Of a DNA stretch of 64,000 bases, positions 9,026 to 24,770 are shown piece by piece; positions within the stretch are counted from its first letter, which is position 1; the number at the start of each line of letters is the position of its first letter. The position numbers were made by a program, and so were the translations under genes. This stretch comes from an uncultured Hoeflea sp. (GTDB taxonomy: Bacteria > Pseudomonadota > Alphaproteobacteria > Rhizobiales > Rhizobiaceae), in NCBI RefSeq assembly GCF_947501405.1, contig NZ_CANMVK010000001.1:1-64000 (forward strand). The letters are read 5' to 3'. Below the pieces are notes generated by a model that saw nothing but the letters and a program-made list of their open reading frames with translations, did not search any database and was not told the origin of the DNA.

Positions 9026-9096
9026 GATTGATGCAGATCAAGCAAATTCGGCGCTGCCTGTGGCAACAATGCAGGACATTGTCGAAGGAAGCCGCC

Positions 9097-10410
9097 ATGA
9101 CCTCATCAGAGTTTTTGACTTCACGCCGTATGTTTCTCGGGCTGGCGGGCACCGCTCTTGCAGCGGTAACAGCAAATGCGCCGGCCCGCGCGGCGCGAAC
9201 CAAAACCTCGGCACGGGTGGTGATCATCGGCGCGGGCGCTGCTGGCACAGCGCTGGTCAACCGGCTGGTGCAGCGTTTGGACGGCGCGCAGATCACCGTC
9301 CTTGATGCCCGCAAAGAGCATCTTTATCAGCCGGGCCTGTCGCTGGTGGCGGCGGGACTGAAGCCGGCCTCATATACGGTCAGTCAAACCACCGACTGGC
9401 TGCCCCAAGGGATCACCTACTTCAATGAGGCGGCGGCCGGGATCGATCCCCTGACCCAGAAAGTCACGACGTCGTCAGGCAAGTCGATCTACTATGATTT
9501 CCTTGTTGCCGCACCCGGCCTGGTGCTTGATCACGATGCGATTGAAGGATTTTCACTGGATCTGGTGGGAACCAACGGTATCGGCGCGCTCTACGCCGGG
9601 CCGGAATATGCCGCGAAAACCTGGGTGGCGGCTTCCAGATACACCGAGGAAGGCGGGGTTGGCCTGTTCACCCGGCCGGGCACGGAAATGAAATGCGCCG
9701 GCGCGCCGCTCAAGCATGCGTTCCTGATCGATGACATCGCCCGTACCGCCGGCAATGCAGGCAAGACCGAAATCATCTATGCCGCAAACAACGACAGCCT
9801 GTTTGGCGTGCCAATCGTCTCGGAAAAGGTGCGTATGCTATTCGGCGACCGCGGCATCAAACCCGTCTACAGCCATGTGATAAAATCCATTGATCCGGGC
9901 GCCCGGCGTGCCACATTCTCGACGCCCGAAGGTGAGACCGAACTCGATTATGACTATCTTCATGTGATCCCGCCACAGCGCGCGCCCGACGTGATCCGCC
10001 AGTCGGGGCTGTCCTGGGCCGACAAATGGACCGACCAGGGCTGGGTCGAGGTCGACAAACAAACCCTGCGGCACCTGAGGTATCCAGAGATTTTCGGGCT
10101 CGGTGATGTGGCAGGCGTGCCCAAGGGCAAGACCGCGGCCTCGGTTAAATGGCAGGTGCCGGTGGTTGAAGACCACCTGGTGGCAGCGATTGAGGGGCGG
10201 GAGGGCACGGCGGCCTATAACGGCTATACTTCCTGCCCGCTGATCACCCGGGTCGGCCGCGCCATGCTGGTTGAATTCGATTACCAGAACAATCTGACTC
10301 CATCGTTTCCAGGGGTGATCGCGCCGCTGGAAGAATTGTGGATCAGCTGGCTAATGAAGGAGGTGGCGTTGAAAGCCACCTACAACGCCATGCTGCGCGG
10401 CAAGGCCTGA
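9097..10410 (+). CDS. Tat-exported sulfide:quinone oxidoreductase-like flavoprotein
   Basis: 437-aa FAD/NAD(P)-fold oxidoreductase expected to oxidise sulfide and pass electrons to quinone or a cytochrome. A twin-arginine signal (TSRRMFLGLAG) occupies residues 1-35, then the FAD dinucleotide fold VVIIGAGAAGTALV. Two conserved cysteines of the SQR/FCSD family are present: Cys200 (KCAGAPLKHAF) and Cys380 (TSCPLI). The C-terminal helix LEELWISWLMKEVALKATYN resembles the membrane-docking tail of SQR. ATG 9097 is chosen for its GAAGGA site and the Tat signal. Export suggests a periplasmic SQR or a flavocytochrome c dehydrogenase subunit without an adjacent cytochrome. The upstream SqrR-type box supports the sulfide role. 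Confidence 0.85.
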   Translation: MTSSEFLTSRRMFLGLAGTALAAVTANAPARAARTKTSARVVIIGAGAAGTALVNRLVQRLDGAQITVLDARKEHLYQPGLSLVAAGLKPASYTVSQTTDWLPQGITYFNEAAAGIDPLTQKVTTSSGKSIYYDFLVAAPGLVLDHDAIEGFSLDLVGTNGIGALYAGPEYAAKTWVAASRYTEEGGVGLFTRPGTEMKCAGAPLKHAFLIDDIARTAGNAGKTEIIYAANNDSLFGVPIVSEKVRMLFGDRGIKPVYSHVIKSIDPGARRATFSTPEGETELDYDYLHVIPPQRAPDVIRQSGLSWADKWTDQGWVEVDKQTLRHLRYPEIFGLGDVAGVPKGKTAASVKWQVPVVEDHLVAAIEGREGTAAYNGYTSCPLITRVGRAMLVEFDYQNNLTPSFPGVIAPLEELWISWLMKEVALKATYNAMLRGKA

Positions 10411-10908: not shown

Positions 10909-11766
10909 TCACAAGGCCTGCCAAAATGCTTCGACCGCCGGGCTGACCTGGCCTTGGGGTCGCTTTATCTTGCGCAGTTGACGCAAGGTGATGGGATCTG
11001 ACGGAACTATGAACCGAACCTGGTCAATCTGCTGATGGAGGACGCTGTGAGGCAGTATGGTGGCGCCGAGTCCGGCACTGACAAAAGACAGCAATGCACT
11101 GGTGTTGCGCACCGACAGATTGCATTGCGCTAGCGCGCTGGTGACTGTTGGATGTTGAACCAGGTGGCAGAGCGGGTTGGCGATCAGCGTTTCCAGTTGT
11201 AAAACATCCCAGGAAACGTGATCGGATCGCTCCGCTTCTTGCGCGATTGGGCCACCCTCGCGGTACACTATGCCCAGCTCATCCTCGAGTATGGCCACGC
11301 CATCGCTGGAACCGGCCGCGGCCGAAATGATTCCGATGTCGGCTTCATCCAATAAAACACGGCGGTGCACGGACTGGCTGTCCGTATCACTGATTTCCAG
11401 TCGAACCTCAGGCCTTTCGGCGCGGAAAGCCGCAATGACGTGCGGCAGAAGCATCGTTGTTGCCGATGGCGTGGCCGCCACGCGGACGGTTCCGGCAAGC
11501 GAGGATGCATGGCGGCGTATGGCTTCGACACTTCGGCCGAATGCATCGGTTGCACGCGCGCTTTCATCAAGGACATGTTGGCCAAGCGGCGTGAGCCGGT
11601 TCTTCCGATCGGTTTCAAACAATGGCGCGCCGATATCGTCCTGAAGCTGTGCCAGCATCATTGATAGAGCAGATGGAGTGCGCCCCAGCTCCTCGCTGGC
11701 GCTTGCCAAACTGCCTTTCTCGGCCACGATGCGAAAGACCCGAAGCATCTCCAGTTTAATCGCCAT
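10909..11766 (-). CDS. LysR-family transcriptional regulator
   Basis: 285-aa LysR regulator: N-terminal winged helix (LRVFRIVAEKGSLASASEEL, residues ~7-60) and a substrate-binding co-inducer domain (about 90-280, starting GTVRVAATPSATTMLL). Divergently transcribed from the aldehyde-dehydrogenase operon with 90 bases between starts, the usual layout for an activator of the facing operon. The start ATG 11766 gives the family length and puts the HTH at residue 7; upstream in-frame sequence runs into the opposite gene. Ligand unknown. Confidence 0.9.
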   Translation of the reverse strand: MAIKLEMLRVFRIVAEKGSLASASEELGRTPSALSMMLAQLQDDIGAPLFETDRKNRLTPLGQHVLDESARATDAFGRSVEAIRRHASSLAGTVRVAATPSATTMLLPHVIAAFRAERPEVRLEISDTDSQSVHRRVLLDEADIGIISAAAGSSDGVAILEDELGIVYREGGPIAQEAERSDHVSWDVLQLETLIANPLCHLVQHPTVTSALAQCNLSVRNTSALLSFVSAGLGATILPHSVLHQQIDQVRFIVPSDPITLRQLRKIKRPQGQVSPAVEAFWQAL

Positions 11767-11856
11767 TTCAATTTCCCTGAAATTAGTTTGAGAAATTTGA
11801 GATTGTCTTAAATATCTTCTTGCGTCTAGCCTTGTTCCTAATCTGGAGAGGCATTC

Positions 11857-13308
11857 ATGACGCAAAACACAGGCATCTATATCGACGGGCGTTGGCATGA
11901 CGGTGCGGGCACAATTGAGAACCGCAATCCATCGGATCTGTCGGATGTGATCGGCAATTACGGTCAGGCCTCCGGAGCTGACCTGGATGCAGCACTGGCA
12001 GCAGCCAGGAACGCGCAGCCGGTTTGGTGGCGTGCCGGCGTCCAGAAGCGCCACGACGTTCTGATGAGCATTGGCACCGAGCTTATGGCGCGGGCCGAAG
12101 AGATCGGGAGGCTTCTTTCTCGCGAGGAAGGCAAGCCGCTGGCGGAAGGGAAGGGCGAGGTCTACCGCGCCGGTCAGTTCTTCACCTATTTTGCTGCGGA
12201 GGTTCTGCGTCAGCAAGGCGATTTCGCAGAAAGCGTGCGGCCCGGAATTGAAATTGATGTGCGCCGTGAGCCGGTGGGCGTTGTCGCCATCATCAGCCCC
12301 TGGAACTTTCCCGTCGCCACCCCCGCCTGGAAAATTGCGCCGGCCCTGGCGTTCGGCAATGCGGTGGTCTGGAAGCCAGCCAATCTGACGCCAGCGAGTG
12401 CCTGCGCGCTCACGGACATTATTGCCCGTCAGGACATACCATCAGGCCTTTTCAATCTGGTCGCCGGACCAGGGCGCGATGTTGGCCAGCGCCTTGTCGA
12501 GAGCGCCGACGTGGATGCAATTACCTTCACCGGCTCGGTTCCTGTCGGACGCCGGATTGCAGGCTCAGCCATCGGCAACATGCCCAAATTGCAGATGGAG
12601 ATGGGGTCCAAAAACCCATTCCTGGTTATGGATGACGCAGACCTTGATCTTGCGGTTGGCCATTGTGTCAATGCCGCGTTCGGCGGAACCGGACAGAAAT
12701 GCACCGCCGCCTCACGCCTCATCGTTCATGAGTCCGTGCATGATGCTTTTGCCGAAAAGTTTGTGGCTGCGACCAAAACCTTGCAGGTCGGCCATGCGCT
12801 AGAAGATGGCACACAGATCGGCCCGGTCGTGAGCCAGGACCAGTTCGACCAAAACCTGGACTATGTCCGCATCGGGCAGGACGAGGGCGCCGAGCTTGTC
12901 TGCGGTGGTCAGCGCCTGGAGCGTTCCACCGAGGGATATTTCATGGATCCTGCGGTCTTTGTCGGCACCAGCAACGATATGCGCATCAATCGCGAGGAGA
13001 TGTTCGCGCCGATTACCTGCATCATCAAAGCGGGCGGCTATGAGGAAGCTCTGGCGATTGCCAATGACACCCAGTTCGGCCTGACGGCGGGCATCATGAC
13101 CACATCGCTGGCCCGTGCCGGCCATTTCCGCGCCAACATGAAAGCTGGCTGCGTGATGGTGAACCTGCCCACCGCTGGCACCGACTATCATGTGCCCTTT
13201 GGCGGGCGCGGCGCCTCATCCTATGGACCGCGTGAACAGGGCAGATATGCGGCTGAGTTCTACACCACCGTGAAGACGGCCTACACCGCGTCCGGGTCGC
13301 CCCAATGA
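11857..13308 (+). CDS. NAD(P)+-dependent aldehyde dehydrogenase
   Basis: 483-aa ALDH-superfamily enzyme oxidising an aldehyde to the acid. The N-anchor ISPWNFPVATPAWKIAPAL, catalytic Glu248 (QMEMGSKNP) and nucleophile Cys282 (GQKCTAAS) are intact. The EMGSKNP variant is typical of the 2,5-dioxovalerate (alpha-ketoglutarate semialdehyde) dehydrogenase branch, which I give as the best guess. It is first gene of the LysR-controlled operon; GGAGAGG precedes ATG 11857 and its stop overlaps the next start by 4 nt. In context it probably oxidises a semialdehyde from the same catabolic pathway. Confidence 0.88.
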   Translation: MTQNTGIYIDGRWHDGAGTIENRNPSDLSDVIGNYGQASGADLDAALAAARNAQPVWWRAGVQKRHDVLMSIGTELMARAEEIGRLLSREEGKPLAEGKGEVYRAGQFFTYFAAEVLRQQGDFAESVRPGIEIDVRREPVGVVAIISPWNFPVATPAWKIAPALAFGNAVVWKPANLTPASACALTDIIARQDIPSGLFNLVAGPGRDVGQRLVESADVDAITFTGSVPVGRRIAGSAIGNMPKLQMEMGSKNPFLVMDDADLDLAVGHCVNAAFGGTGQKCTAASRLIVHESVHDAFAEKFVAATKTLQVGHALEDGTQIGPVVSQDQFDQNLDYVRIGQDEGAELVCGGQRLERSTEGYFMDPAVFVGTSNDMRINREEMFAPITCIIKAGGYEEALAIANDTQFGLTAGIMTTSLARAGHFRANMKAGCVMVNLPTAGTDYHVPFGGRGASSYGPREQGRYAAEFYTTVKTAYTASGSPQ

Positions 13309-14318
13309 GTACGCGTATCGACGGCCTGCAATATGCCAACTGGTCGGAAAAGATATTCCGTCAGCTGCGCGAGGGTGCCGTCGATGCCATCCATGTGACG
13401 ATCACATATCATGAGAATTTCCGCGAGACCGTGCTCAATGTCGAGCGCTGGAACCGCTGGTTCGAACGCTACCCGGACCTGATCTTTCAGGGCCGCACGG
13501 CAGATGATGTCGTGCTTGCCAGAAAAACCGGACGCACGGCGATCTTCTTCGGCTCACAAAATCCCTCCTGCATGGAGGATGACATTGGTCTGGTCGAAGT
13601 GCTGCACACACTGGGGCTGCGCTTCATGCAACTCACCTACAACAACCAGTCGCTGCTCGCGTCCGGCTGCTACGAGGATGAAGACACAGGTCTCACACGC
13701 ATGGGCCGTCAGGTGGTTGCCGAGATGAACCGTGTTGGTCTGGTCGTTGATATGAGCCACTCGGGGGAACGCTCAACGCTGGAAGCCATCGCGCATTCCA
13801 GCCGCCCCATAGCCATCACCCACGCCAATCCATCCAGCTGGCACCCTGCCTTGCGCAACAAGTCCGACACAGTGCTCAAGGCTCTGAGCGAAACTGGCGG
13901 TATGCTGGGCCTCTCGCTTTATCCCCATCATCTTAAACATGGCAGCGACTGCCAGTTGCAGCAATTCTGCGACATGGCGGCACGCACGCTTGAGCTGATG
14001 GGTGACGGGTGCGTGGGCATTGGCAGCGACCTTTGCCAGGACCAACCCGACAGCATCGTGGAGTGGATGCGCGTCGGGCGATGGACCAAGCAAGTCGATT
14101 ATGGCGAGGGCAGTGCGCAGGCGCCTGGTTTCCCGCAAATGCCGTCCTGGTTTGAAGACAATCGAGATTTCGGATCGCTTGAACAGGGATTGCGCGCCGC
14201 CGGTCTAAGCGACCAGCAGGTCGCGGGCATCCTGGGCGAGAACTGGCTTCGATTTTTCGTGAAGAGCTTCGGTGCTCAGGGGACAGGTCCGGGGGCAGTT
14301 CACAGCATCTCTGAGTAA
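13305..14318 (+). CDS. M19 family membrane (renal-type) dipeptidase
   Basis: 337-aa zinc dipeptidase of the amidohydrolase superfamily. Conserved features include LRFMQLTYNNQS, the zinc-binding VVDMSHSGERS and AITHANPSSWHPALRNKSD, and GIGSDLCQD near residue 240. Its ATG overlaps the ALDH stop (ATGA). It lacks a signal peptide, so it should act in the cytoplasm on a dipeptide-like or amide-linked substrate delivered by the BCCT carrier. M19 genes also occur in Pseudomonas glycine-betaine loci, which fits a quaternary-amine link but does not prove it. Confidence 0.88.
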   Translation: MSTRIDGLQYANWSEKIFRQLREGAVDAIHVTITYHENFRETVLNVERWNRWFERYPDLIFQGRTADDVVLARKTGRTAIFFGSQNPSCMEDDIGLVEVLHTLGLRFMQLTYNNQSLLASGCYEDEDTGLTRMGRQVVAEMNRVGLVVDMSHSGERSTLEAIAHSSRPIAITHANPSSWHPALRNKSDTVLKALSETGGMLGLSLYPHHLKHGSDCQLQQFCDMAARTLELMGDGCVGIGSDLCQDQPDSIVEWMRVGRWTKQVDYGEGSAQAPGFPQMPSWFEDNRDFGSLEQGLRAAGLSDQQVAGILGENWLRFFVKSFGAQGTGPGAVHSISE

Positions 14319-14387
14319 CAGTCTGCAGAGTTCGATTTGCATGGCCCATCGCGGGCCGGGATCTAAAACGTTCTGGGAGGAGCGGAT

Positions 14388-15935
14388 ATGACTGACGTGA
14401 CACATTCGCCAGGCAAAGGTGCCTGGCACGAGGGGATCGACAAGCCTCTCTTTGCCGTAACCGGCGGGTTTATCCTGCTGTTTTGTCTGTTGACGCTGAT
14501 CGACATTGATTTGCTGTCGTCTCTTGTCGATGCGGGCTTTGCCTGGTCTGCCAAGTGGTTTGGCCTGTATTGGCAGCTTTTGCTTTTGGCCACGTTCCTT
14601 ATCGGGCTGGTGCTTTGTTTCCTGCCGGGCGCGAGCACCCGCATGGGGGCATTGGCGGCGCCGGAGTTCACCACGTTCCAATGGGGCGCAATGATCATGT
14701 GCACCCTGCTGGCAGGCGGCGGGGTGTTCTGGGCTGCCGGTGAGCCGATTGCCCACTATCTTTCGACGCCACCGCTCTTTGGAGACCTTGGTGATGATCC
14801 GCAGGCGCGCGCTCATGCCGCGCTCGCCCAGAGCTTTCTGCATTGGGGGTTCCTCGCCTGGGCTATTCTGGGCGCGCTGACCACCGTCATGCTGATGCAC
14901 TATCATTATGACAAAGGCCTTCCGCTGGCGCCGCGCACGCTGCTCTATCCGGTGTTTGGTGACCGGGCGATCAACGGATGGATCGGCGTTGTTGCCGATG
15001 CCAGCTGCATTATCGCCGTTGTGGCAGGCACGGTGGGTCCCATCGGTTTCCTGGGCCTGCAAATGTCTTATGGCCTCAACGCGCTGTTTGGGCTGCCTGA
15101 TACTTTCGCAACGCAAACGGTTGTGATCCTCGCGCTGGTAAGCATCTACACGGTCTCGGCGATCACAGGGCTCACCAAGGGCATCAAGCTGCTTTCACAG
15201 GTGAATGTGATTCTGGCCGTCGCGCTGCTCTTGTTCATGCTGGTCGCCGGACCGACCGCAGCAATCCTGAGCAGTTTCACTGGCGGGTTTGGCACCTACA
15301 TGTCCGAGTTCTTTGGCTTGGCGATGTTTCGTGGCGATGCCGGCCTCTTCGGCGAGCCGGGCTGGCTTGGCTGGTGGACGGTGTTCTTCTGGGGCTGGTT
15401 CATGGGATATGGACCGCTGATGGCGATCTTCATCGCCCGCGTGAGCCGGGGCAGATCCATTCGCTCAATCATTGTTTTGCTGGCGATCATCGCGCCGATC
15501 ATCACCAATTTCTGGTTCACGATCATCGGTGGAACGGGCATTGCCCTGGAGCAGGCCAATCCCGGCATCATCTCTGGCCCGTTTGAAGGCTTCAACCTGC
15601 CTGCCGGCCTGCTGGCGATCACCCAGGCCTTGCCTCTGGGCTTTCTGGTATCGGTTCTGTTTCTGGTCCTGACGATGGCTTTTGTCGCCACAACCAGTGA
15701 CTCCATGAGTTACGTCATCGCGACATCCATGTCGGATGACAATCCCTCACCAATGCTGCGTGCTTTCTGGGGCATTTCCATGGGTATCATGGCCCTTATC
15801 CTGATCTCGACGGGAGCAGGCGGGATTGGCAAACTGCAAAGCTTCATCGTGGTCACCGCCGTACCGGTGTCCTTGATCCTTTTGCCATCATTGTGGGACG
15901 CGTTGCGGATCACCTTGGCGCTGGGACGCAAGTGA
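14388..15935 (+). CDS. BCCT family betaine/choline/carnitine-type transporter
   Basis: 515-aa carrier with about twelve helices. The BCCT signature is present in altered form at WWTVFFWGWFMGYGPLMAIF followed by IARVSRGRSIR. The substrate-box region FWAAGEPIAHYLSTPP is clear. It imports a zwitterionic, usually quaternary ammonium, solute driven by Na+ or H+. GGGAGG precedes ATG 14388. A 19-bp tandem repeat duplicates the stop region and a hairpin follows, so expression beyond it may be reduced. Confidence 0.9.
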   Translation: MTDVTHSPGKGAWHEGIDKPLFAVTGGFILLFCLLTLIDIDLLSSLVDAGFAWSAKWFGLYWQLLLLATFLIGLVLCFLPGASTRMGALAAPEFTTFQWGAMIMCTLLAGGGVFWAAGEPIAHYLSTPPLFGDLGDDPQARAHAALAQSFLHWGFLAWAILGALTTVMLMHYHYDKGLPLAPRTLLYPVFGDRAINGWIGVVADASCIIAVVAGTVGPIGFLGLQMSYGLNALFGLPDTFATQTVVILALVSIYTVSAITGLTKGIKLLSQVNVILAVALLLFMLVAGPTAAILSSFTGGFGTYMSEFFGLAMFRGDAGLFGEPGWLGWWTVFFWGWFMGYGPLMAIFIARVSRGRSIRSIIVLLAIIAPIITNFWFTIIGGTGIALEQANPGIISGPFEGFNLPAGLLAITQALPLGFLVSVLFLVLTMAFVATTSDSMSYVIATSMSDDNPSPMLRAFWGISMGIMALILISTGAGGIGKLQSFIVVTAVPVSLILLPSLWDALRITLALGRK

Positions 15936-15956
15936 CCGGCGCTGGGACGCAAGTGA
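15917..15956 (+). repeat. 19-bp direct repeat duplicating the BCCT stop region
   Basis: GGCGCTGGGACGCAAGTGA occurs at 15917-15935 and 15938-15956. The first copy encodes the last residues (LALGRK) and stop; the second is non-coding. It looks like a recent slippage duplication. Confidence 0.85.
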
Positions 15957-15963
15957 TCAAAAA

Positions 15964-15991
15964 CCCTGGCGCGGCGGATGTCGCGCCAGGG
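15964..15991 (+). terminator. GC-rich hairpin between BCCT gene and the unknown gene
   Basis: A perfect 10-bp stem CCCTGGCGCG/CGCGCCAGGG (15964-15973, 15982-15991) with an 8-nt loop. Only a weak T run (CCTTTG) follows, so it may act as an attenuator or mRNA-stability element rather than a full terminator. Confidence 0.6.
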
Positions 15992-16011
15992 CCTTTGACG
16001 AGGAGAGAGCG

Positions 16012-17679
16012 ATGACCACGACATCAACCGATCAGTGCGACGATCCAGGCGCGTTTCGCCGCCCGCCTTCAGACGTCATGCGCCTTGCGCGCATGGGGGC
16101 GGCTCATCCGACACGCCTTTCGTTCCTGCGGATGCTGTTGCGGCGTGTTGTGGCTGAGCGTTGGCGTTTTGATCGCCCGGTTTGGCAGATGGACGCCAAA
16201 GGCGTCGGCCGTGCTGTCTACCGTGCAATCGGGCCTGAGCGCACCTACTCGCTCGTCGCTTTTGCCCATGACCTGCCTGAAGAGATGCGCACCGATCGTG
16301 TCATCGCGACAGCTTGGGACGCGACCTTCGCCCTGTTTGACGGCACACCAAGCGAGAATGACCTGGATCGGCTGGAGGCCAATGTACCGCGTCAGGAGGC
16401 GGGTCGTGTTGGTCCGAGCGAATTGAGTTTGAGCCGCGCCAATCGGTCTGTTCGCCTGTTTGCCCATGTTGTCGACAGGCTTGCCAGCGGACGCCAGCCG
16501 GACCGTTCTGAAATGGCAGCGGTTGGCTACCTCATGCGCACCACGGCAGTCTATGGATCGGGCAAATTCGGTGCTGCTGACCGCGAGCGCATTGCCGATC
16601 GAGCTGAACTGAGCGAGCCTTTCCAGGCGGAAATGCTGTCGGTTTGGCTGACGCGGGAATTCAGCACCGACCTGGTGGAGCATATAGCCGCTGCCAAGGG
16701 AGGCGAAAAAGCCGCGCGTCTTGATGCGGACATCAAGCGCGAACTGGGCGTTGGCAATTCCACAGGACTTGGCATGGCGCCGTTCCTGGTGCGCCACCCT
16801 GTCTTGCTCAACAATTGGATGGCTGCCCGCGAAGAGGCTTTGGCGCGGGTGCGGGCGCTGGAATTTGCGTCACCGCAAAGCGTTCAATCTCTTCACGATG
16901 CGCTCGAAGACGCTCAATCAAATGCCACCGATTGGCATTCCGAGCATCCCATCCAGGTGGCCAAACTGGCCGACTTGCGAACGGACCTTGGACGCATAGC
17001 CGCGCGTTTGAAGACCTGGCCAGGCGAAGAACCCCGACCTTGGGATGCGCTGTGGCGCTGGGGTGAAGAGCTTTCCCTGGAGGGGCAGGAGGCATTGCTT
17101 GCCCTGCTTCTGGAGCCCCATGGTGCCATTGTCGATGAACTGGCCGATGAAATGAGCGCCGATGAGGCCGATTGCTTTCGCATCGACGGTCGCATGACTG
17201 TCAGCACGCTTCGACAGGCGCTCGAGGAGGGCTTCGATTGGGCGTTGGCCATCAATTTTGACGATCCGCAGCAGACTGCGCGGTTTTGGTATGTTTCAGA
17301 AGAGAAGCTGGAACCGCGTCTGGGCAGCCGCGCGCGGGAGGCCGGTGCGGAACTGGAGCAGCCGCTGTGCATCGCACGGCTTGCACAAGGTCTCCACCGA
17401 GCGCTGGGAGGCTGGGATCAAAACGCCTTGGTGGCTGAATTCCTGCTCGCTGAACCCGAGCACCGCTTCATGGTGCGCCGCGCCCAGGTTCAGCAGCGGT
17501 ATCCCTATGCTGAGGTGCGCGACAATCTGATTGCCGAAGACATGCTGCCCATCGACCTGATGCGGTGCAAGCTCGCCTTCTTTGGCGCAAGCCGCTTCGA
17601 CCCCCGGTCAGACAAGTGGGTGCGTATCAGTCTGTTTCAGGGCGAGCCTTATCCCTCTGACATGGAGTATGCAGGATGA
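16012..17679 (+). CDS. conserved-looking 555-aa protein of unknown function
   Basis: I do not recognise this protein. It is 555 aa, soluble, rich in Arg, Glu, Ala and Trp, with no signal peptide, membrane segment or nucleotide-binding loop. Distinctive stretches are YLMRTTAVYGSGKFGAADRE near residue 180, HPVLLNNWMAAREEALARVR near 265, and a C-terminal RRAQVQQRYPYAEVRDNL region. GGAGAGAG precedes ATG 16012, and its end overlaps the DUF3726-like gene by 4 nt, so the two are translated together and probably form a complex. Its place between a BCCT carrier and RidA points to a catabolic enzyme or its large subunit. Coding quality is good; function is open. Confidence 0.75.
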   Translation: MTTTSTDQCDDPGAFRRPPSDVMRLARMGAAHPTRLSFLRMLLRRVVAERWRFDRPVWQMDAKGVGRAVYRAIGPERTYSLVAFAHDLPEEMRTDRVIATAWDATFALFDGTPSENDLDRLEANVPRQEAGRVGPSELSLSRANRSVRLFAHVVDRLASGRQPDRSEMAAVGYLMRTTAVYGSGKFGAADRERIADRAELSEPFQAEMLSVWLTREFSTDLVEHIAAAKGGEKAARLDADIKRELGVGNSTGLGMAPFLVRHPVLLNNWMAAREEALARVRALEFASPQSVQSLHDALEDAQSNATDWHSEHPIQVAKLADLRTDLGRIAARLKTWPGEEPRPWDALWRWGEELSLEGQEALLALLLEPHGAIVDELADEMSADEADCFRIDGRMTVSTLRQALEEGFDWALAINFDDPQQTARFWYVSEEKLEPRLGSRAREAGAELEQPLCIARLAQGLHRALGGWDQNALVAEFLLAEPEHRFMVRRAQVQQRYPYAEVRDNLIAEDMLPIDLMRCKLAFFGASRFDPRSDKWVRISLFQGEPYPSDMEYAG

Positions 17680-18368
17680 CCGAGGACGGCAGCGACCCCA
17701 TACAATCGGGTTTCACCCCGCCGCCAACCGACCTGGCTCTGTTGTCGAGCAATGAAGCAGGTGCCCTTTGCCTCAAAGCTGCCAGAGGCGCCGGGATGTC
17801 ATGGGGACTGGCCGAAGAAGCGGGCTATGCTGCCGCCTGGCTTTACACCCGCGGGATAAATGGGCCCGAGCTGCTTCTCCGGCATCTCAACTGGATCGCT
17901 GATCGCGCATACGGTAACGTGCGGCCGGCGGGCCATGAGAACCCGGTTCCGTCCGATGGCACTGCATTGTGCCCGGTTGCTCTTGGCGCCAGCCTGTCGG
18001 ATGGTTGCACGATCCCGCAAGGCACCATTGGTCCGGTTCAGGTGCCTGTGTTGCTCTTGCCGTTTGTCCATCAATTGGCCGTTTCCGCTGCCAGCGCGCT
18101 CCGGCTGCGATGGAATGGCGGGCATGTTTCGGTCAGTCCTGAAGGGTATGTGTCAGGCGATATGGATGACCTGACCGCTCTCGACGTCACAGAGCTGACG
18201 CTTCAAACCGACGACACTTCAGACGTTGTTCCGGTGTCGCAGATCGCGCCGGTTCCGATTCGCCGGTCGGTTCTCTCCGACCTCAACGCTTACGCCATGC
18301 AAACCACCGTTCCTGCTTCCAGCGCTTCGCGTGAAGACGCCGGGTCAGCGGCCGGTGACAACGATTAA
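17676..18368 (+). CDS. DUF3726-like protein
   Basis: 230-aa soluble protein. The N-terminal part (SSNEAGALCLKAARGAGMSW, then GLAEEAGYAAAWLYTRGI) resembles DUF3726, a family without known function. Four Cys lie at LCLKAA, ALCPVAL, and DGCTIP (third), plus none clustered as an Fe-S motif. Start ATGA overlaps the preceding stop and RidA follows 15 bases after its stop. It probably is the small partner of the 555-aa protein. DUF assignment is from memory of the family pattern and needs a profile search. Confidence 0.7.
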   Translation: MTEDGSDPIQSGFTPPPTDLALLSSNEAGALCLKAARGAGMSWGLAEEAGYAAAWLYTRGINGPELLLRHLNWIADRAYGNVRPAGHENPVPSDGTALCPVALGASLSDGCTIPQGTIGPVQVPVLLLPFVHQLAVSAASALRLRWNGGHVSVSPEGYVSGDMDDLTALDVTELTLQTDDTSDVVPVSQIAPVPIRRSVLSDLNAYAMQTTVPASSASREDAGSAAGDND

Positions 18369-18383
18369 AGGACTGCAATTGCC

Positions 18384-18737
18384 ATGAAACTTGAAAGACT
18401 AAATCCCGGTGCGCGTATGAGCCAGGTCGTTTGTGCAGGTGAGCTTGCCTTTCTGGCAGGCCAGGTTCCCAATGATCTGGGCGGCGATATCACGGCGCAG
18501 ACACAAGAGGTTCTGGCCAAAATCGATGGCATCATGGAGCAATTGGGAGGCAGCAAGGCCGACCTGATATCGGTGCAGATCTGGCTGGCCGATATGGAGG
18601 ATTTCAGCGGCATGAATGCGGTCTGGGACGCCTGGGTGGATCCGGAAAACCCGCCCGCCCGCGCAACCGGCGGTGTGGCTCTGGCGCGCGCAGGCATGCG
18701 GGTGGAGATGATTGCCGTGGCGCGCTTGCCCGGCTGA
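18384..18737 (+). CDS. RidA/YjgF-family enamine/imine deaminase
   Basis: 117-aa RidA-fold protein. The family core is visible in VCAGELAFLAGQVPNDLGGD, LGGSKADLISVQIWL and the catalytic-site Arg93 in NPPARATGGVAL, which anchors the carboxylate of 2-aminoacrylate-type intermediates. It hydrolyses reactive enamines/imines released by PLP enzymes or amine oxidases. Last gene of the LysR-side operon. A diaminopropionate ammonia-lyase homologue, which generates such an enamine, lies 6 kb away in the same locus, giving a plausible substrate. A more specific deaminase role is possible. Confidence 0.88.
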   Translation: MKLERLNPGARMSQVVCAGELAFLAGQVPNDLGGDITAQTQEVLAKIDGIMEQLGGSKADLISVQIWLADMEDFSGMNAVWDAWVDPENPPARATGGVALARAGMRVEMIAVARLPG

Positions 18738-18835: not shown

Positions 18836-18941
18836 CTAGCGCATTTCCACTCGAAGTTGGGTCAGAAATTGCTGCCGCTCGCGATGCTCGCCCGCATTTT
18901 CTGACACGCTACTGATTCAAGCTGAAGTGGAATTGCGCTAG
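18836..18941. repeat. ~106-bp palindromic (MITE/REP-like) element
   Basis: The outer arms CTAGCGCATTTCCACT (18836-18851) and its near-complement at 18926-18941 differ at one of 16 positions. An inner pair, GTCAGAAA (18861-18868) and TTTCTGAC (18898-18905), is also complementary. The whole can fold as a long imperfect stem. The right arm supplies the stop codon of the Lrp gene (18938-18940). No reading frame. It has the look of a non-autonomous repeat; other copies must be sought outside the window. Confidence 0.65.
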
Positions 18942-19387
18942 ATGATATCCAGGGACACTTTCACGCGGTCCATAACGATCGACGACACGAATTTGTTGAC
19001 GTTGGATTCGTCGAAAAAGTACTCTTGTGTGAAGGCTTCATACTCGTTGATGTCTTCGACCATCACAATCAAAATGAAATCCGCCGAGCCGGTGGTGTAG
19101 TAGCATTGCTGCACAGCGGGGGCGCTGCGCATCCGTCGCTTGAAGGAGTCGAGATGCATCCGGCTTTCTCGCTCAAGCATAACCTGCACGATCACAGTCA
19201 TCGAGCGCCCAAGTTTGCTGGGCGAGAGGACTGCGATTTCCTTTTCGATCACACCAGTGTCGCGTAGCCTCTTGAGCCGCTTTTGAACGGCTGGCGTCGA
19301 CAAGCCAACTTCATGGCCCAGGGTTTCCGCGGTCAGACGGGCGTTGGACTGGAAGTGTGTGAGGATTTCGAGGTCTTTGTCATCCAT
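18938..19387 (-). CDS. Lrp/AsnC-family transcriptional regulator
   Basis: 149-aa regulator. HTH at about residues 5-50 (LTAETLGHEVGLSTPAVQKRLKRLR) and an AsnC effector/oligomerisation domain (about 68-140, with the QQCYYTTGSADFILIVMV strand). Start ATG 19387 gives family length. It faces the Ehu-like transporter genes with 274 bases between, as EutR/DoeX-type AsnC regulators do in ectoine-utilisation loci. It probably senses the imported compound or its product. The stop codon lies inside a palindromic repeat. Confidence 0.88.
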   Translation of the reverse strand: MDDKDLEILTHFQSNARLTAETLGHEVGLSTPAVQKRLKRLRDTGVIEKEIAVLSPSKLGRSMTVIVQVMLERESRMHLDSFKRRMRSAPAVQQCYYTTGSADFILIVMVEDINEYEAFTQEYFFDESNVNKFVSSIVMDRVKVSLDII

Positions 19388-19661
19388 GATCGCACTTTGA
19401 TCGGCATGATGGGTCACAGCAACTGTTTTTATCAAATATCCTCAATCTTCGAGGAAAAGCATCCCTGGCTGGCCGATAGCCTTCTTCGCAAGCTAAGCAG
19501 AACGCCGAGGGGAAAGCGTAACGTGAAGCGGGCAAATTCTGCTTCGCGGATCGTCATTGGGTCAAGCTCGCATCGCGTACAACGCCATGCGCGTTGAGGT
19601 CCGTCAAAAAAAGACGCGTTCTGCAAAGCTCACCGAGAATTCAGCTTACTGGGAGAACAAT
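19388..19661. promoter_or_regulatory. divergent Lrp / ehuB-like control region
   Basis: 274 bases between the regulator and transporter starts. AT-rich around 19420-19445 (ACTGTTTTTATCAAATATCC), which should hold promoter and Lrp-binding sequences. I see no strong inverted repeat and cannot place exact -10/-35 boxes. Confidence 0.35.
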
Positions 19662-20510
19662 ATGCCAATTCAACTGACCAAGATCGCCGTGATTGCCAGC
19701 CTTGTCCTTGGGTCGACTGCAGTCACAGCAACCGCAGATACGATTACCGAGCGGCTTGCTGCCGGCGATCCCATTCGCATCGGCTTCTCCAATGTTCCGA
19801 TCTGGGGTTACCCGGATGAGAATGGCGAGGCCAAAGGCTTCGTCAATGCGATTGCGCTGGGCATTTTGGCCGAGATGGGTATCACCGACGTTGAAACCAC
19901 GGTTACCGATTGGGCCGGTCTCATTCCCGGGCTGCAAGCTGGCCGCTACGACCTGATCACCGGCGGCCTGTATATCCTCAACAGCCGTTGCGCCAACATT
20001 GCCTTCTCCGAGCCAATTGGTTCGATGGGCGACGCTTTCATCGTACCGGCCGGCAATCCGCGCAATATCAACAATTACAAGGATGTCCTGGCGCTGGAAG
20101 ATGCTGTGTTGGTTACACCGACTGGCTACAACAGTGTTGAAGCGGCACGCCGCGAGGGACTGGATGACGATCAGCTCATGCAAGTGCCGGGACCATCGGA
20201 AGTTCTGGCAGCTGTGCGGGCGGGCCGTGCCGATGCCGGTGCTGTGACGTATTTTGAAGCCGACTTCCTGGCCGGCGAGTCAGATGGCACCATTGATGTG
20301 ACCGATCCTTCGGCTTTGCCGGAATGGACACTCAACTGGGTCGGCATTGGCATGCGGTTCGACGACAGCGCCTTTATGGCCGACTTCAACACCGCTTTGG
20401 CCAAGTATGTCGGCACCGAGGAGATGTTGGCGTCTGTTGAGGAATATGGGTTTACCGCGGCGCATCTGCCGGGCGACAAATCCACCGAATGGGTCTGCGC
20501 CAACCGCTAA
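19662..20510 (+). CDS. EhuB-like amino-acid/ectoine ABC substrate-binding protein
   Basis: 282-aa periplasmic binding protein, family 3. Signal peptide residues 1-25 (ending VTATA-DT). The mature sequence follows rhizobial EhuB closely: RIGFSNVPIWGYPDENGEAK, WAGLIPGLQAGRYDLITGG, SRCANIAFSEPIG, GDAFIVPAGNP, GRADAGAVTYF and LNWVGIGMRF. EhuB binds ectoine and hydroxyectoine. GGGAG precedes ATG 19662. It heads the ehuBCDA-order transporter. The enzymes around it are not the canonical eut set, so the true ligand may be a related cyclic or diamino compound. Confidence 0.85.
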   Translation: MPIQLTKIAVIASLVLGSTAVTATADTITERLAAGDPIRIGFSNVPIWGYPDENGEAKGFVNAIALGILAEMGITDVETTVTDWAGLIPGLQAGRYDLITGGLYILNSRCANIAFSEPIGSMGDAFIVPAGNPRNINNYKDVLALEDAVLVTPTGYNSVEAARREGLDDDQLMQVPGPSEVLAAVRAGRADAGAVTYFEADFLAGESDGTIDVTDPSALPEWTLNWVGIGMRFDDSAFMADFNTALAKYVGTEEMLASVEEYGFTAAHLPGDKSTEWVCANR

Positions 20511-20579
20511 CCCCGATATGGCGACGGCGGGCCCTTGCGGCTCGCCGTTTCGCCAAGCCCATGCTGAAAAGGCGGGCCA

Positions 20580-21245
20580 ATGACGTTCTTTGAATTTCTC
20601 GTTCAGTACTGGCCGCGGCTCCTATCGGGGGCCGGCGTTACGGTTGTTCAGTTTTTCCTTGCTGCCGTGCTGGGTATCGCGCTTTCCGTGACAATGGGAT
20701 TGATGAAGCTTTCGCCCAACCGATTGGTGAGCGGCGCGGCCATCACATACATCGAGTTCTTCCGAGGCACCTCGCTGCTGGTTCAGCTCTACTGGATCTT
20801 TTTTGTCCTCCCGCTGTTTGGGCTGACGATCGACAAGTTCACCGCCGGTTACATTGCCGTGGGGATGAACATCGGCGCCTATGGAGCGGAGTTGGTGCGC
20901 GGCGGCATACTGAGTGTGCCCAGGGGGCAATGGGAGGCAGCGCTTGCGCTTAACATGACGCCGGCGAAGCGAATGTGGCGGATCATCCTTCCACAGGCGC
21001 TGGTCAACATGTTGCCGCCCTGGGGCAATTTGATGATCGAGCTGTTGAAGGGTACCGCGCTTGTTTCACTGATTTCGGTCGCGGATCTGATGTTCGAGGC
21101 GCGGCAGATCAACAGCAGTACGTTCCTGTCTGCACAGGTCTTCGGTGCTGCGCTGATCATCTACTACATCATGGCGCGTTTCATGTTGACGCCTTCAATG
21201 CGCTGGCTGGAGCGCTTTATGGCCCGCAAGATGGGGAGGGCTTAA
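20580..21245 (+). CDS. EhuC-like polar amino-acid ABC permease
   Basis: 221-aa inner-membrane permease of the HisMQ/GlnP type. Helices near 13-40, 55-80, 90-110 and 185-205; EAA-loop region GQWEAALALNMTPAKRMWRIILPQA (position ~120). The start ATG 20580 lies 69 bases after the binding-protein stop. Forms the heterodimeric channel with the following permease. Confidence 0.9.
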   Translation: MTFFEFLVQYWPRLLSGAGVTVVQFFLAAVLGIALSVTMGLMKLSPNRLVSGAAITYIEFFRGTSLLVQLYWIFFVLPLFGLTIDKFTAGYIAVGMNIGAYGAELVRGGILSVPRGQWEAALALNMTPAKRMWRIILPQALVNMLPPWGNLMIELLKGTALVSLISVADLMFEARQINSSTFLSAQVFGAALIIYYIMARFMLTPSMRWLERFMARKMGRA

Positions 21246-21248
21246 GCG

Positions 21249-21914
21249 ATGGAATGGCGATGGGACTTTACCTGGGACATCCTCCCACGACTGATTGAAG
21301 CCACCGGCAACACGTTGCTGGCAGCAGGTGGCGGCTATGCCATCGCGGTGGTGCTTGGCCTGGTTCTGGCCTTGGCGCAGCGCACGCCCTACCGGGTCTT
21401 GACCTGGGTGGTACGCGAGATTGTCGAGTTCATCCGCTCAACGCCGCTGCTGCTGCAGATCTTTTTCGTCTTCTATGTCGGACCGCAGTTCGGCATCCGC
21501 CTCAGCCCCTGGGCCTCTGGCATGATCGCCATTGGACTGCACTATGCTTGCTATCTGTCGGAGGTTTATCGCGGCGGCATTGAAAGCGTTGCCAAGGGGC
21601 AATGGGAAGCGGCGACAGCGTTGAACATGACCACGATGCAGACCTACAGGCGCATTGTCATACCCCAGGCAATCCCCCCAGCCGTTTCGGGTCTTGGCAA
21701 CTATCTGGTTGGAATTTTCAAGGATACGCCGATGCTTTCCGTGATTGGCGTCACCGAGCTCATTCACACGGCCAACACCATCGGATCGGAGAATTTCAGG
21801 TTTCTTGAGCCGTATACGATGGTTGGGCTTATTTTCCTCGCGATATCGCTGCCAACAGCCGGTCTTATCCGCGCCTTTGAACGATATGTGCGTCGCAAGA
21901 TGGGATTGCAGTAA
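21249..21914 (+). CDS. EhuD-like polar amino-acid ABC permease
   Basis: 221-aa inner-membrane permease paralogous to the upstream gene, with matching EAA-loop (GQWEAATALNMTTMQTYRRI) and RSTPLLLQIFFVFY helix. Begins three bases after the previous stop and ends one base before the ATPase start, so the four transporter genes are one transcript. Confidence 0.9.
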   Translation: MEWRWDFTWDILPRLIEATGNTLLAAGGGYAIAVVLGLVLALAQRTPYRVLTWVVREIVEFIRSTPLLLQIFFVFYVGPQFGIRLSPWASGMIAIGLHYACYLSEVYRGGIESVAKGQWEAATALNMTTMQTYRRIVIPQAIPPAVSGLGNYLVGIFKDTPMLSVIGVTELIHTANTIGSENFRFLEPYTMVGLIFLAISLPTAGLIRAFERYVRRKMGLQ

Positions 21915-21915
21915 C

Positions 21916-22731
21916 ATGGACGACCTCAAGGGTTTCCCTCAGGAATTGACCGGTGCCGACCGCCCCATGGTCAGCTTTCGCAAGGTAGGCAAGGCTTATG
22001 GCCCGCTGACGGTGCTCGATGATCTTGATCTGGATGTTGCAGAAGGCGAGATGGTCTCGATCATCGGACCTTCCGGTTCAGGCAAGACAACGGTGCTGCG
22101 CATGCTGATGACGCTGGAAGAGATCAATGGCGGCTGCATCTATATCGACGGGCAGCCGCTTACCCACATGCCGAAAAATGGCGGTCTGGTGCGGGCCAAT
22201 CAGCGGCACTTGCGTGCGCGTCGTGTCGATATCGGCATGTGTTTCCAGCACTTCAACCTGTTCCCGCATATGACCGCCCTTGAAAACTGCATGGAAGGGC
22301 CTGTGCAGGTGCTTGGCATGCCGAAAACTGAGGCTCGCGCGCGATCCGAAGAGCTTCTGGAGATGGTCGGGATGATCGAAAAAAGGGATCAGCATCCCTC
22401 GCGTCTGTCCGGTGGTCAGCAGCAACGTGTGGCCATCGCCCGTGCGCTCGCCATGCGACCGAAGGTGATGCTGTTTGATGAGGTCACCTCGGCACTGGAT
22501 CCGGAAGTGATTGGCGAGGTGACCAATGTCATTCGCGGCTTGGCCAGTGAACACAAGCTCACCATGCTGATGGTCACGCACCAGATGGGATTTGCGCAGG
22601 ACATCTCCGATCGGGTCTGCTTCTTCTATGGCGGCAAGATCGAAGAGCAGGGACCGGCATCTGAGCTCTTTGGCAATCCTCAAAGAGAGCGGACGCAACA
22701 GTTCCTCAGTGCCGTCAAAGAGGCTGTTTGA
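21916..22731 (+). CDS. EhuA-like amino-acid ABC transporter ATPase
   Basis: 271-aa ATPase of the GlnQ/HisP class. Walker A GPSGSGKTT, Q-loop CFQHFNLFPHMTALEN, signature LSGGQQQRVAIARA, Walker B VMLFDEVTSALDPE and switch MVTHQMGFA are intact. Has the ~20-residue insertion after Walker A common in EhuA (HMPKNGGLVRANQRHLRARR). ATG 21916 chosen by spacing to the previous stop. Confidence 0.92.
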   Translation: MDDLKGFPQELTGADRPMVSFRKVGKAYGPLTVLDDLDLDVAEGEMVSIIGPSGSGKTTVLRMLMTLEEINGGCIYIDGQPLTHMPKNGGLVRANQRHLRARRVDIGMCFQHFNLFPHMTALENCMEGPVQVLGMPKTEARARSEELLEMVGMIEKRDQHPSRLSGGQQQRVAIARALAMRPKVMLFDEVTSALDPEVIGEVTNVIRGLASEHKLTMLMVTHQMGFAQDISDRVCFFYGGKIEEQGPASELFGNPQRERTQQFLSAVKEAV

Positions 22732-22784
22732 TCCCGCGCGCCGATCTGTCGCGCGCCCTGCCGAAATCAAGGAGTTCAAGGCTC

Positions 22785-23579
22785 ATGTTCAAACCCGGGC
22801 AGTCTCTGGCCTCCAAACCGAGAACACCAAGGATGGATTGCGGGCGTCATCACCGCGCGCAGCTTGGCTTTATCTTGATGTCAACAGATTTGGCGTGCGA
22901 GGCCGATGTCTTCGCAATGGCGCCGGAGGGCGTTGGGGTGCATATCACCCGGCTCAAGACTGAAGATCGCACGACCACTGAAACACTGGCCGACCATATT
23001 GTGCATATGGCTGATGCTGCCTCGCGTCTGCAACCGGACATGAGGCCCGATGTTGTTTGCTATGGGTGCACCAGCGGCTCCATCGTCAACGGCGAGGAGA
23101 GGGTGTTTGAGGAGATTCGCAAAGGCGCACCCTGGGCGGTGCCGATGTGCATAGCGACAGGGGTGGTTGATGCCCTGCGGGAACTTGACGCCCGAAAGAT
23201 TGTTGTCGGCACGCCTTATCTCGATGAAATCAATGTGGCTGAAGCGGTGTTTCTCGATGAGAAGGGCTTTGATGTGGTCGACATCCAGGGCCTCAATCTG
23301 AAAACCGGCCTTGAGTTCGGGAAGGTGACACCAGGCTATTGGAAAGAGTTTGCCATTGAGATCGATGATCCGGAGGCTGATGCCATCTTCCTGAGCTGCA
23401 GCGGCATTCGCGCCCTGGATGTCATTGAGGAGATTGAGGCTGCGACCGGCAAGCCGGTTATCACATCCAACCAGGCTCAGTTTTGGAGCTGCTTGCGTCG
23501 TGCCGGTATCGCCGATGAGCTTGAAGGTTTTGGCCAGTTGTTTTCGCGTCCGGGTGAGACGCTTCGGCCGACGGGTTGA
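22785..23579 (+). CDS. Asp/Glu racemase-family enzyme (EutA / maleate isomerase type)
   Basis: 264-aa cytoplasmic enzyme of the aspartate/glutamate racemase, maleate isomerase and arylmalonate decarboxylase fold. Both catalytic cysteines are visible: Cys95 in VCYGCTSGSIV and Cys205 in FLSCSGIRALDVI. The same family includes EutA of ectoine-utilisation loci. It follows the transporter by 53 bases behind AAGGAG, so is co-transcribed. It may racemise, isomerise or decarboxylate an intermediate; which of these cannot be told from sequence. Confidence 0.85.
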   Translation: MFKPGQSLASKPRTPRMDCGRHHRAQLGFILMSTDLACEADVFAMAPEGVGVHITRLKTEDRTTTETLADHIVHMADAASRLQPDMRPDVVCYGCTSGSIVNGEERVFEEIRKGAPWAVPMCIATGVVDALRELDARKIVVGTPYLDEINVAEAVFLDEKGFDVVDIQGLNLKTGLEFGKVTPGYWKEFAIEIDDPEADAIFLSCSGIRALDVIEEIEAATGKPVITSNQAQFWSCLRRAGIADELEGFGQLFSRPGETLRPTG

Positions 23580-23600
23580 TGGCACCCGGACGCGGAGATA

Positions 23601-24770
23601 TCAAATCACCGGAAGCTCCGGGGCTGCGCGCTCGGTGAGGAGCTCCGCGCCAGTCTTTCCCACCACAATGTCTTCCTCATGGACCATCATCAGGCCATTG
23701 CCATAGCTCAAGGACGGCTCCAGCGTCAGAACCATATTCTCTTGCAGGACTGTGGTATCAAACGCTGCATGGGAGGGTTGTTCGGTGAGTTGCATGCCCA
23801 GGCCATGGCCAAGGCGGCCGATGTCGCCGCCGGATGTGTCGATCTCCGCAATCACGGCCGACATCGCATCAAACAGATTACGGGTGGTGTTGCCCGGTTT
23901 GGCTGCTGCCAGACCCGCTTCTGTCGCCCGCCACAGTGTGTCGTATACTCGTTTTGCCCTGTCATCGGCCTGGCCGATGGCCCAGTTGCGATCAAAATCA
24001 CAGAAGTAACCGTCCCAGGTGCAACCGGTGTCCAGCATCATCACATCGCCGCGCTGCAGGGGGCGTTGAGAGGGCGGTGAGATCACGTCTGTATAACCGC
24101 CTTGGCCCGCGGCACCGACAAGATAGGGTGCATCATCGGCACCGTTGGCCAGCGCCTCGCGCCGAAAAGTGCGGAACACCTCATCCAGCGGCATGCCTTC
24201 GGCGACGATCTCCGGCACGCTGGCAAAAGTGGCTGAGCCGATGGCGCAGATATGCCTGAGTTTATCGATTTCCGCTGAAGATTTGACCATGCGCAGTCCC
24301 TGCACGAGGCCGGTTGCATCCGCGATCTGAAGGTCGGGCAGGGCACCTATTAGGCGTTCCCAATCCCCCAGCGGCATGCGCAGGTGAGTTTCATGGCCTT
24401 TCATAACACCGATCCGCGCCTTGTCTTTGGCCAACGGGCCGAGCAATTGGCTCAGCAAGCTGATTCCATCATCATGCGGGGCAGGTGCGGACCAGGTGCG
24501 AATATCCTCAAGCCAGGTCTGGCGCATCAGTGACGCGCCAATCTCGGGAATGATCGCGATCGGTTTGCCGCTTAAGGGGAGAAACAGGAACCAGGGCCGC
24601 GTTGGGCTTTGCCAGAACAGCGTTTGAAAGCCGGAAAAGTATCGAACATCCGGCTCAGACATCAAGAGCAGGCCGGCCCACCCCTGTTTGGCCATCAGGG
24701 CTTGAGCCTTGGCCGTCCGACTGGCGAATTCCCGCGAGGGAAACCCGCGTGCGGGCGCATCACGCGGCAT
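23601..24770 (-). CDS. M24 family aminopeptidase-fold hydrolase (Xaa-Pro / EutD-like)
   Basis: 389-aa pita-bread hydrolase. An N-terminal creatinase-like domain (about 15-155) precedes the metallopeptidase domain. The five metal ligands are seen: Asp pair in MLDTGCTWDGYFCDFDRNW, His in GHGLGMQL, Glu in TLEPSL and Glu in HEEDIVV. Relatives are Xaa-Pro peptidases, creatinase and ectoine hydrolase (DoeA/EutD). ATG 24770 behind GAGGGG overlaps the upstream lyase gene by 11 nt. Third gene of the minus-strand operon. It may open a ring or cleave an amide of the imported compound. Confidence 0.85.
   Translation of the reverse strand: MPRDAPARGFPSREFASRTAKAQALMAKQGWAGLLLMSEPDVRYFSGFQTLFWQSPTRPWFLFLPLSGKPIAIIPEIGASLMRQTWLEDIRTWSAPAPHDDGISLLSQLLGPLAKDKARIGVMKGHETHLRMPLGDWERLIGALPDLQIADATGLVQGLRMVKSSAEIDKLRHICAIGSATFASVPEIVAEGMPLDEVFRTFRREALANGADDAPYLVGAAGQGGYTDVISPPSQRPLQRGDVMMLDTGCTWDGYFCDFDRNWAIGQADDRAKRVYDTLWRATEAGLAAAKPGNTTRNLFDAMSAVIAEIDTSGGDIGRLGHGLGMQLTEQPSHAAFDTTVLQENMVLTLEPSLSYGNGLMMVHEEDIVVGKTGAELLTERAAPELPVI

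Follow-up and report, generated by a model that had tools for sequence, protein, structure and literature searches.

An operon around the P555–DUF3726 protein pair in an uncultured Hoeflea sp. and its possible role in homarine catabolism

Introduction

Which compound is degraded by an operon whose largest unassigned protein belongs to no recognised family? The question is raised by six co-directional genes in a stretch of 64,000 nucleotides from an uncultured Hoeflea sp. (NZ_CANMVK010000001.1, positions 1 to 64,000), referred to here as the window. These genes encode an aldehyde dehydrogenase (ALDH), an M19-fold hydrolase, a carrier of the BCCT family, a protein of 555 amino acids termed P555, a DUF3726 protein and the Rid-family protein RidA, and they face a divergent gene for a LysR-type regulator. 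Calling of open reading frames (ORFs) places all seven where an initial annotation had put them, including the 4-nt overlap of P555 and DUF3726 (start at 17676, end at 17679). Gene content, the pairing and occasional fusion of P555 with DUF3726, the predicted fold of the latter, an altered metal site in the M19 protein and the exchange of RidA for a dehydrogenase of the Ldh_2 type (type 2 malate/lactate dehydrogenase, PF02615) are the observations made here. The answer towards which we lean is that the operon serves the catabolism of homarine (N-methylpicolinate) or of a very similar N-methyl-pyridinium carboxylate, and that it probably represents one form of an already published pathway.

P555 and DUF3726 form a conserved pair

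Relatives of P555 were examined in the best 80 of at least 586 matches (the named loci, mostly of Rhodobacteraceae, with a Pseudomonas, a Chromatiales metagenome-assembled genome, Pseudovibrio and others among them, many on short contigs), in 297 genomes of the window's family and in 385 genomes of its class. Neighbours were counted by tblastn with reference proteins within 8 kb of P555 in the 80 named loci, of which the 50 whose flanks reach 7 kb or more upstream and 5 kb or more downstream of P555 form a stricter subset; codon-trained ORF calling in the 80 loci missed P555 in 4. A FastTree phylogeny was built from the 81 P555 proteins of the named loci and the window.

The initial annotation recognised no family for P555, and indeed neither Pfam nor NCBIfam yields a single match at E values up to 0.1, profiles of flavin monooxygenases of the TgnA type included. 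Its predicted structure (pLDDT 87.1, pTM 0.88) found no counterpart in the PDB in searches with the whole model only. P555 matches occur in 47 of the 297 family genomes, 25 of them near (47-100% identity, one in fragments in genome G253) and 22 distant (29-36%), as well as in 53 of the 385 class genomes, near and distant copies taken together, and in 168 plasmid records, among which Sinorhizobium (64) is the most frequent source, followed by Phaeobacter (58). Since matches are found in many genomes and nearly all are open frames, with few fragmentary or interrupted by stops (e.g. G253, G373, G642), P555 is not a chance ORF. On the plasmid of Pseudomonas sp. MPC6 (L132), which is typed as conjugative, the operon is split over two strands with an IS6 transposase nearby.

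A separate DUF3726 frame follows P555 in 70 of the 80 named loci, and the two are fused in 4 more (L031, L039, L071, L073); the annotation of Mesorhizobium sp. 131-2-1 shows a further fusion, one frame of 815 codons including the stop. The junction reads ATGA in 51 of the 80 loci. Moreover, Pfam detects DUF3726 in 22 of the 25 near-P555 family genomes vs 5 of the 272 others (Fisher p 2e-25, kinship ignored). Conservation of the pair across genomes, which the initial annotation had proposed as a test of its own idea, is thus borne out, in some loci as a fusion. In L031, L039 and L071 the fused pair is accompanied by a methyltransferase of the MttB family and by an Oxidored_FMN protein of 681 aa.

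The wider neighbourhood is conserved to varying degrees: M19 lies near P555 in 75 loci, DUF3726 in 69, ALDH in 64, LysR in 55, either of two BCCT types in 41, Ldh_2 in 33, Rid in 25 and an OpuAC-type ABC system in 8, while the 50 long-flank loci contain M19 in 48, ALDH in 43, LysR and DUF3726 in 42 each, Ldh_2 in 25 and Rid in 15. In the window, the six genes are spaced by -4, 69, 76, -4 and 15 nt, and a single transcript is therefore likely; a co-functional catabolic operon, as initially proposed, is supported. M19-P555-DUF3726 is retained even in four AT-rich genomes of 1.2-1.4 Mb (local GC 0.28-0.36), two of which carry Ldh_2, an OpuAC-type ABC system and ALDH alongside.

The distant P555 clade (L111-L124, L131, L187) commonly features a regulator (IclR by annotation in S. 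meliloti), the P555 homologue, a partner of about 240 aa, an M19-like protein and a PotDBCA-like (polyamine-type) ABC transporter, often together with RidA; the cluster of S. meliloti Ak57 additionally contains an aminotransferase, a succinate-semialdehyde dehydrogenase (SSADH) and two RidA genes. As judged by hhalign, the partner is colinear with DUF3726 over 193 columns at a probability of only 5% (E 0.0072), and it is likely a DUF3726 protein. Over this region, the Ak57 replicon labelled pSymA (L131, CP090105.1) shares 97-98% identity with pSymB from strain 2011, and its label may be swapped.

A predicted Ldh_2-like fold for DUF3726

In the predicted structure of the fused homologue from L071, DUF3726 adopts the fold of Ldh_2. 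At the level of sequence the relation is faint: for the DUF3726 protein of the window and three others only DUF3726 was reported and PF02615 was not, and the direct comparison with Ldh_2 gave a weak match (probability 24%, E 0.0008, 56 columns). The histidine of the SHG motif is catalytic in Ldh_2 and present in 11 of 12 Ldh_2 rows; in DUF3726 no column carries a histidine in more than 30% of 51 rows. DUF3726 is therefore, on the evidence of its predicted fold, best described as a putative shortened Ldh_2-like domain. DUF3726 is mentioned in none of the open-licence PMC papers searched.

A domain of this fold that has lost its histidine, next to a protein of no known catalytic family, would also suit a chaperone, a sensor or an assembly factor for the neighbouring ALDH or M19 protein instead of an enzyme. 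We consider such a role improbable, as 60 positions of P555 are invariant across 27 sequences, 13 of them arginine, and as P555 is retained in small genomes devoid of an adjacent ALDH.

A second context of DUF3726 bears on its function. In all five family genomes that contain DUF3726 but lack P555 (L188-L192), it lies directly behind a FAD hydroxylase of the UbiH/UbiF/COQ6 type; the other four hydroxylases are 68-87% identical to that of L192, and the two tested exceed the NCBIfam cut-off of NF005599 ('ubiquinone biosynthesis hydroxylase'). DUF3726 is possibly a partner in ubiquinone hydroxylation in these genomes. Its position behind ring-hydroxylating enzymes favours, though it does not show, an oxygenase-like role of P555-DUF3726.

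An altered M19 site and a proposed exchangeable imine step

The initial annotation expected ordinary cleavage of a dipeptide or amide by the M19 protein. In the window its metal site reads DGLQY and Q in place of HxD and E, which we take, following the assignment in renal dipeptidase, to be metal ligands. Throughout the readable rows of 108 loci (75 near, 14 distant, 19 class) these positions never hold H, D or E; the HxD positions are mostly L, Y or C and the bridging position is always Q, while the two histidines and the aspartate of the second site are kept in every row. The loss of HxD and the bridging glutamate renders the dipeptidase reaction unlikely, so that this expectation is not upheld; the closest PDB entry, 2i5g (E 1.1e-58), is labelled only 'amidohydrolase'. 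The protein may instead act as a mononuclear hydrolase of an enamide.

Within 8 kb of P555, 22 of the 80 loci carry RidA only, 30 Ldh_2 only, 3 both and 25 neither, i.e. the two seldom co-occur (Fisher p 0.0005, uncorrected for kinship). On the P555 tree, at least nine changes separate the 53 single-type rows (23 RidA-only including the window, 30 Ldh_2-only). Because two unrelated imine-handling enzymes are thus exchanged within one operon, a single imine intermediate is indicated, in agreement with the enamine initially predicted. The closest PDB Rid proteins of the window's RidA are 9bk1, 3k12 and 9bjv, and it remains under the cut-offs of the named Rid models TIGR00004, RutC and PRK11401 (57.7, 39.5 and 28.4 bits). 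Among Ldh_2 proteins, the PDB comparison was made for that of Ruegeria sp. TM1040 only, which is nearest to DpkA, delta1-piperideine-2-carboxylate reductase (1wtj/2cwf/2cwh, E 4.8e-53; next 2.2e-38), and which shares 69-75% identity with the other members of its group. According to excerpts of PMC6775277 and PMC6110843, DpkA has been used to make N-methyl amino acids.

A predicted route from homarine to N-methylglutamate

From this gene content we infer the substrate and every reaction of the following route. BCCT would import the zwitterion, and P555-DUF3726, as one two-subunit enzyme, would cleave the C5-C6 bond of the ring oxidatively, by analogy with trigonelline degradation; for the assignment of ring opening to this pair we see about even chances. 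The product would be an N-formyl dehydro amino acid with an aldehyde at C5, which ALDH would oxidise, whereupon the M19-like hydrolase would take the N-formyl group off the dehydro amino acid, releasing formate and yielding 2-(methylimino)glutarate. In many relatives, Ldh_2 would reduce this imine to N-methylglutamate for demethylation by a sarcosine-oxidase-like enzyme or N-methylglutamate dehydrogenase, while in the window RidA would hydrolyse it to 2-oxoglutarate and methylamine. Balanced by hand, the conversion of homarine to N-methylglutamate and formate amounts to a net two-electron oxidation. Since ALDH and Ldh_2 cancel in this balance, the first step would have to be oxidative, and it is attributed to P555-DUF3726 because the pair is the only unassigned candidate in the operon.

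The transporters suit such a substrate. Among 81 loci including the window, searched with references limited to BCCT, OpuAC-type and a small number of further systems, the window-type BCCT occurs in 28, a second BCCT in 14 and OpuAC in 8, with none recognised in 31; the 50 rows to which a transporter could be assigned require at least nine changes of type on the P555 tree. Uptake of a zwitterion, as first suggested, agrees with the mostly betaine-type transporters recognised in near relatives, among which this type is the rule but not a law.

The end of the route is suggested by sarcosine-oxidase-type subunits flanking the Ldh_2-form P555 loci of Ruegeria sp. TM1040, Aliiroseovarius crassostreae and Shinella sp. 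WSC3-e, three of the seven near-type plasmid loci examined; all three carry Ldh_2, and the other four loci lack such a flank. In addition, 3 of 24 intact near-P555 family genomes have a SoxA-like gene no more than 10 kb from P555, where copy number and genome size would predict 0.37 (p 0.006; distances read by eye, genomes related). The same holds for 3 of 6 small class genomes, chosen with some proximity already seen; a pooled figure of 6 of 30 vs 0.55 expected was discarded as biased, these small genomes having been added after SoxA had been noticed near P555 in some of them. The profile models used do not separate sarcosine oxidase from N-methylglutamate dehydrogenase (Mgd).

Mgd takes part in homarine catabolism according to an excerpt of PMC13390433, which cites Ferrer-Gonzalez 2026 for this; the excerpt gives no homarine catabolic genes beyond Mgd. 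Homarine itself is described, again in excerpt, as a ubiquitous marine metabolite and diatom osmolyte. The name homABCDER was not encountered in the 25 open-licence PMC papers listed in a search. Ferrer-Gonzalez et al. (2026, Nat Microbiol 11:1531-1546) reportedly introduced it, with N-methylglutamate and glutamate as products, and are said to have found the homarine genes in SAR11 and SAR116. A LysR gene and the five structural genes of the Ldh_2 form would fit this name, an equation of genes that we presume. In the initial claim of an undescribed catabolic enzyme, 'undescribed' is doubtful, the pathway probably being the homarine pathway of the 2026 paper.

Competing substrates and evidence against homarine

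The ALDH is compatible with more than one pathway. Its best NCBIfam models are alpha-ketoglutarate semialdehyde (KGSA) and 2,5-dioxovalerate dehydrogenase (490.5 bits vs cut-off 770 and 491.1 vs 750), which would suit an operon that degrades a different betaine or a derivative of a cyclic amino acid, e.g. a hydroxyproline or N-methylproline betaine. ALDH would then be a 2-oxoglutarate semialdehyde dehydrogenase, Ldh_2 would reduce delta1-pyrroline-2-carboxylate, as the proximity of the TM1040 protein to the piperideine reductase allows, and P555-DUF3726 would demethylate or open a saturated ring. The MttB and Oxidored_FMN genes beside three of the fused loci point the same way, as do, on the MPC6 plasmid, a ring-hydroxylating dioxygenase alpha subunit and an ALDH encoded within a few genes of the M19/BCCT part of the operon. 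On the contrary, MttB occurs within 8 kb of P555 in only 3 of the 80 named loci, the core genes of the window and the other annotated loci include no Rieske-type demethylase, and the sarcosine-oxidase-like linkage indicates an N-methyl amino acid product; we therefore regard this explanation as rather unlikely.

The same ALDH also matches the models for carboxymethyl-hydroxymuconic and hydroxymuconic semialdehyde dehydrogenases (395 and 321 bits), and Rid proteins serve as aminomuconate deaminases in known pathways. Together with the lack of any oxygenase family in the operon by Pfam, this would accord with an oxygen-free route for an N-methylated pyridine, in which P555-DUF3726 would hydrate the pyridinium ring and open N-C6, ALDH would make 2-(methylamino)muconate and RidA would be an aminomuconate-type deaminase. 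Such a scheme, by itself, offers no route to N-methylglutamate, yet a number of relatives have Ldh_2 and genes of the sarcosine-oxidase-like kind next to the operon, and we deem it quite unlikely.

Several observations, besides the dioxygenase on the MPC6 plasmid, weigh against homarine. ALDH falls below every curated NCBIfam cut-off shown, including those for KGSA and dioxovalerate, and near P555 in L167/L168 neither ALDH nor Ldh_2 is recognised. By Pfam and NCBIfam profiles the operon has no flavin reductase or known oxygenase, and family matches reveal no cofactor in P555, a dedicated motif search not having been made. The presence of SoxA is non-discriminating (30 of 30 genomes with P555 vs 18 of 20 without), and SoxA/B lies within 8 kb of P555 in only 3 of the 80 loci. 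Those Ldh_2 proteins that fall close to the clade of the window (L031, L032, L039, L049, L071, L094) are only 37-45% identical to the references and, judging by this divergence, may act on another substrate, and the fused Mesorhizobium form goes with an ABC transporter of the branched-chain-amino-acid type. Release of methylamine by the RidA form for GmaS, for which we take TIGR03105 as marker, is unsupported, as GmaS exceeds the cut-off in 6 of 21 RidA-type vs 12 of 23 Ldh_2-type genomes (p 0.14; 44 of 52 single-type loci taken in). Finally, the identity of the operon with homABCDER is presumed from gene logic.

Layout of the locus and adjoining genes

The features are compiled in Table 1; the intergenic region is a possible shared operator/promoter for the LysR gene and the operon.

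Table 1. Features of the operon and its divergent regulator in the window.
Feature	Position	Strand	Remarks
LysR-type regulator	10909..11766	-	Pfam PF03466/PF00126; ATG at 11766; divergent from operon
Intergenic region, 90 nt	11767..11856	.	candidate shared operator/promoter
Aldehyde dehydrogenase (ALDH)	11857..13308	+	PF00171, 522 bits
M19-fold hydrolase, non-canonical metal site	13305..14318	+	PF01244, 241 bits vs cut-off 26
BCCT-family carrier	14388..15935	+	PF02028, 488 bits
P555, 555-aa uncharacterised large subunit (putative)	16012..17679	+	no Pfam/NCBIfam match
DUF3726 small subunit (putative), predicted shortened Ldh_2-like fold	17676..18368	+	PF12525, 63.2 bits vs gathering score 22.1
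Rid-family protein (RidA), probable imine/enamine hydrolase	18384..18737	+	PF01042, 90.6 bits vs 27.3

Adjoining the operon, 18938-27107 is a second, ectoine-like catabolic cluster with an Lrp-type regulator, an ABC system resembling EhuBCDA, an EutA-like protein, an M24 peptidase, a diaminopropionate ammonia-lyase that exceeds an NCBIfam cut-off and an M20 protein resembling DoeB2 that does not reach its own; parts of this cluster also flank P555 at L050 and L106. On the other side, 9094-10407 encodes a protein like type III sulfide:quinone reductase (199.5 bits vs cut-off 525).

Implications and comparison with known systems

If the homarine reading is correct, a family of hypothetical proteins would open pyridinium rings with an enzyme lacking any recognised relative, the annotated 'membrane dipeptidase' would be misnamed, and DUF3726 would gain a predicted fold and be recognised as a partner to enzymes that modify rings. 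The final step would exist in two exchangeable forms, Ldh_2 or RidA, which should route nitrogen differently. More tentatively, P555-DUF3726 could constitute a structurally new class of N-methylpyridinium ring-opening enzymes, composed of P555 without recognised fold and a worn-down Ldh_2 dehydrogenase as small subunit, the latter shared with UbiH-type hydroxylases; the sister clusters, which have polyamine-type ABC transporters and, in S. meliloti, also SSADH, might use the same machine on other N-heterocycles. We hold this possible, if somewhat doubtful.

Compared with its presumed relatives, DUF3726 is clearly shorter than Ldh_2 and lacks both the PF02615 match and the conserved histidine, and the M19-like protein shares sequence family, two metal-site histidines and the aspartate with membrane dipeptidase and 2i5g but has HxD and the bridging glutamate replaced. 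The UbiH-type pair resembles that of P555 in that DUF3726 directly follows a larger protein, overlapping it in L189; in contrast, its partner is an FAD hydroxylase, a family that P555 does not match.

With the trigonelline pathway tgnABCDE the operon would share the predicted logic of C5-C6 ring cleavage, aldehyde oxidation and removal of an N-formyl group, whereas P555 matches no flavin monooxygenase profile in Pfam or NCBIfam. Trigonelline was also considered as substrate of the distant clade in S. meliloti, where SSADH and the two RidA genes of Ak57 would fit. It was rejected, since the P555 homologue lies on pSymB in strain 2011 while S. meliloti without pSymA does not grow on trigonelline, as stated in an excerpt of PMC4207669. 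The homarine pathway shares the involvement of N-methylglutamate dehydrogenase and a betaine-like substrate with our reading of the operon, and differs in that the window carries RidA where more relatives have Ldh_2.

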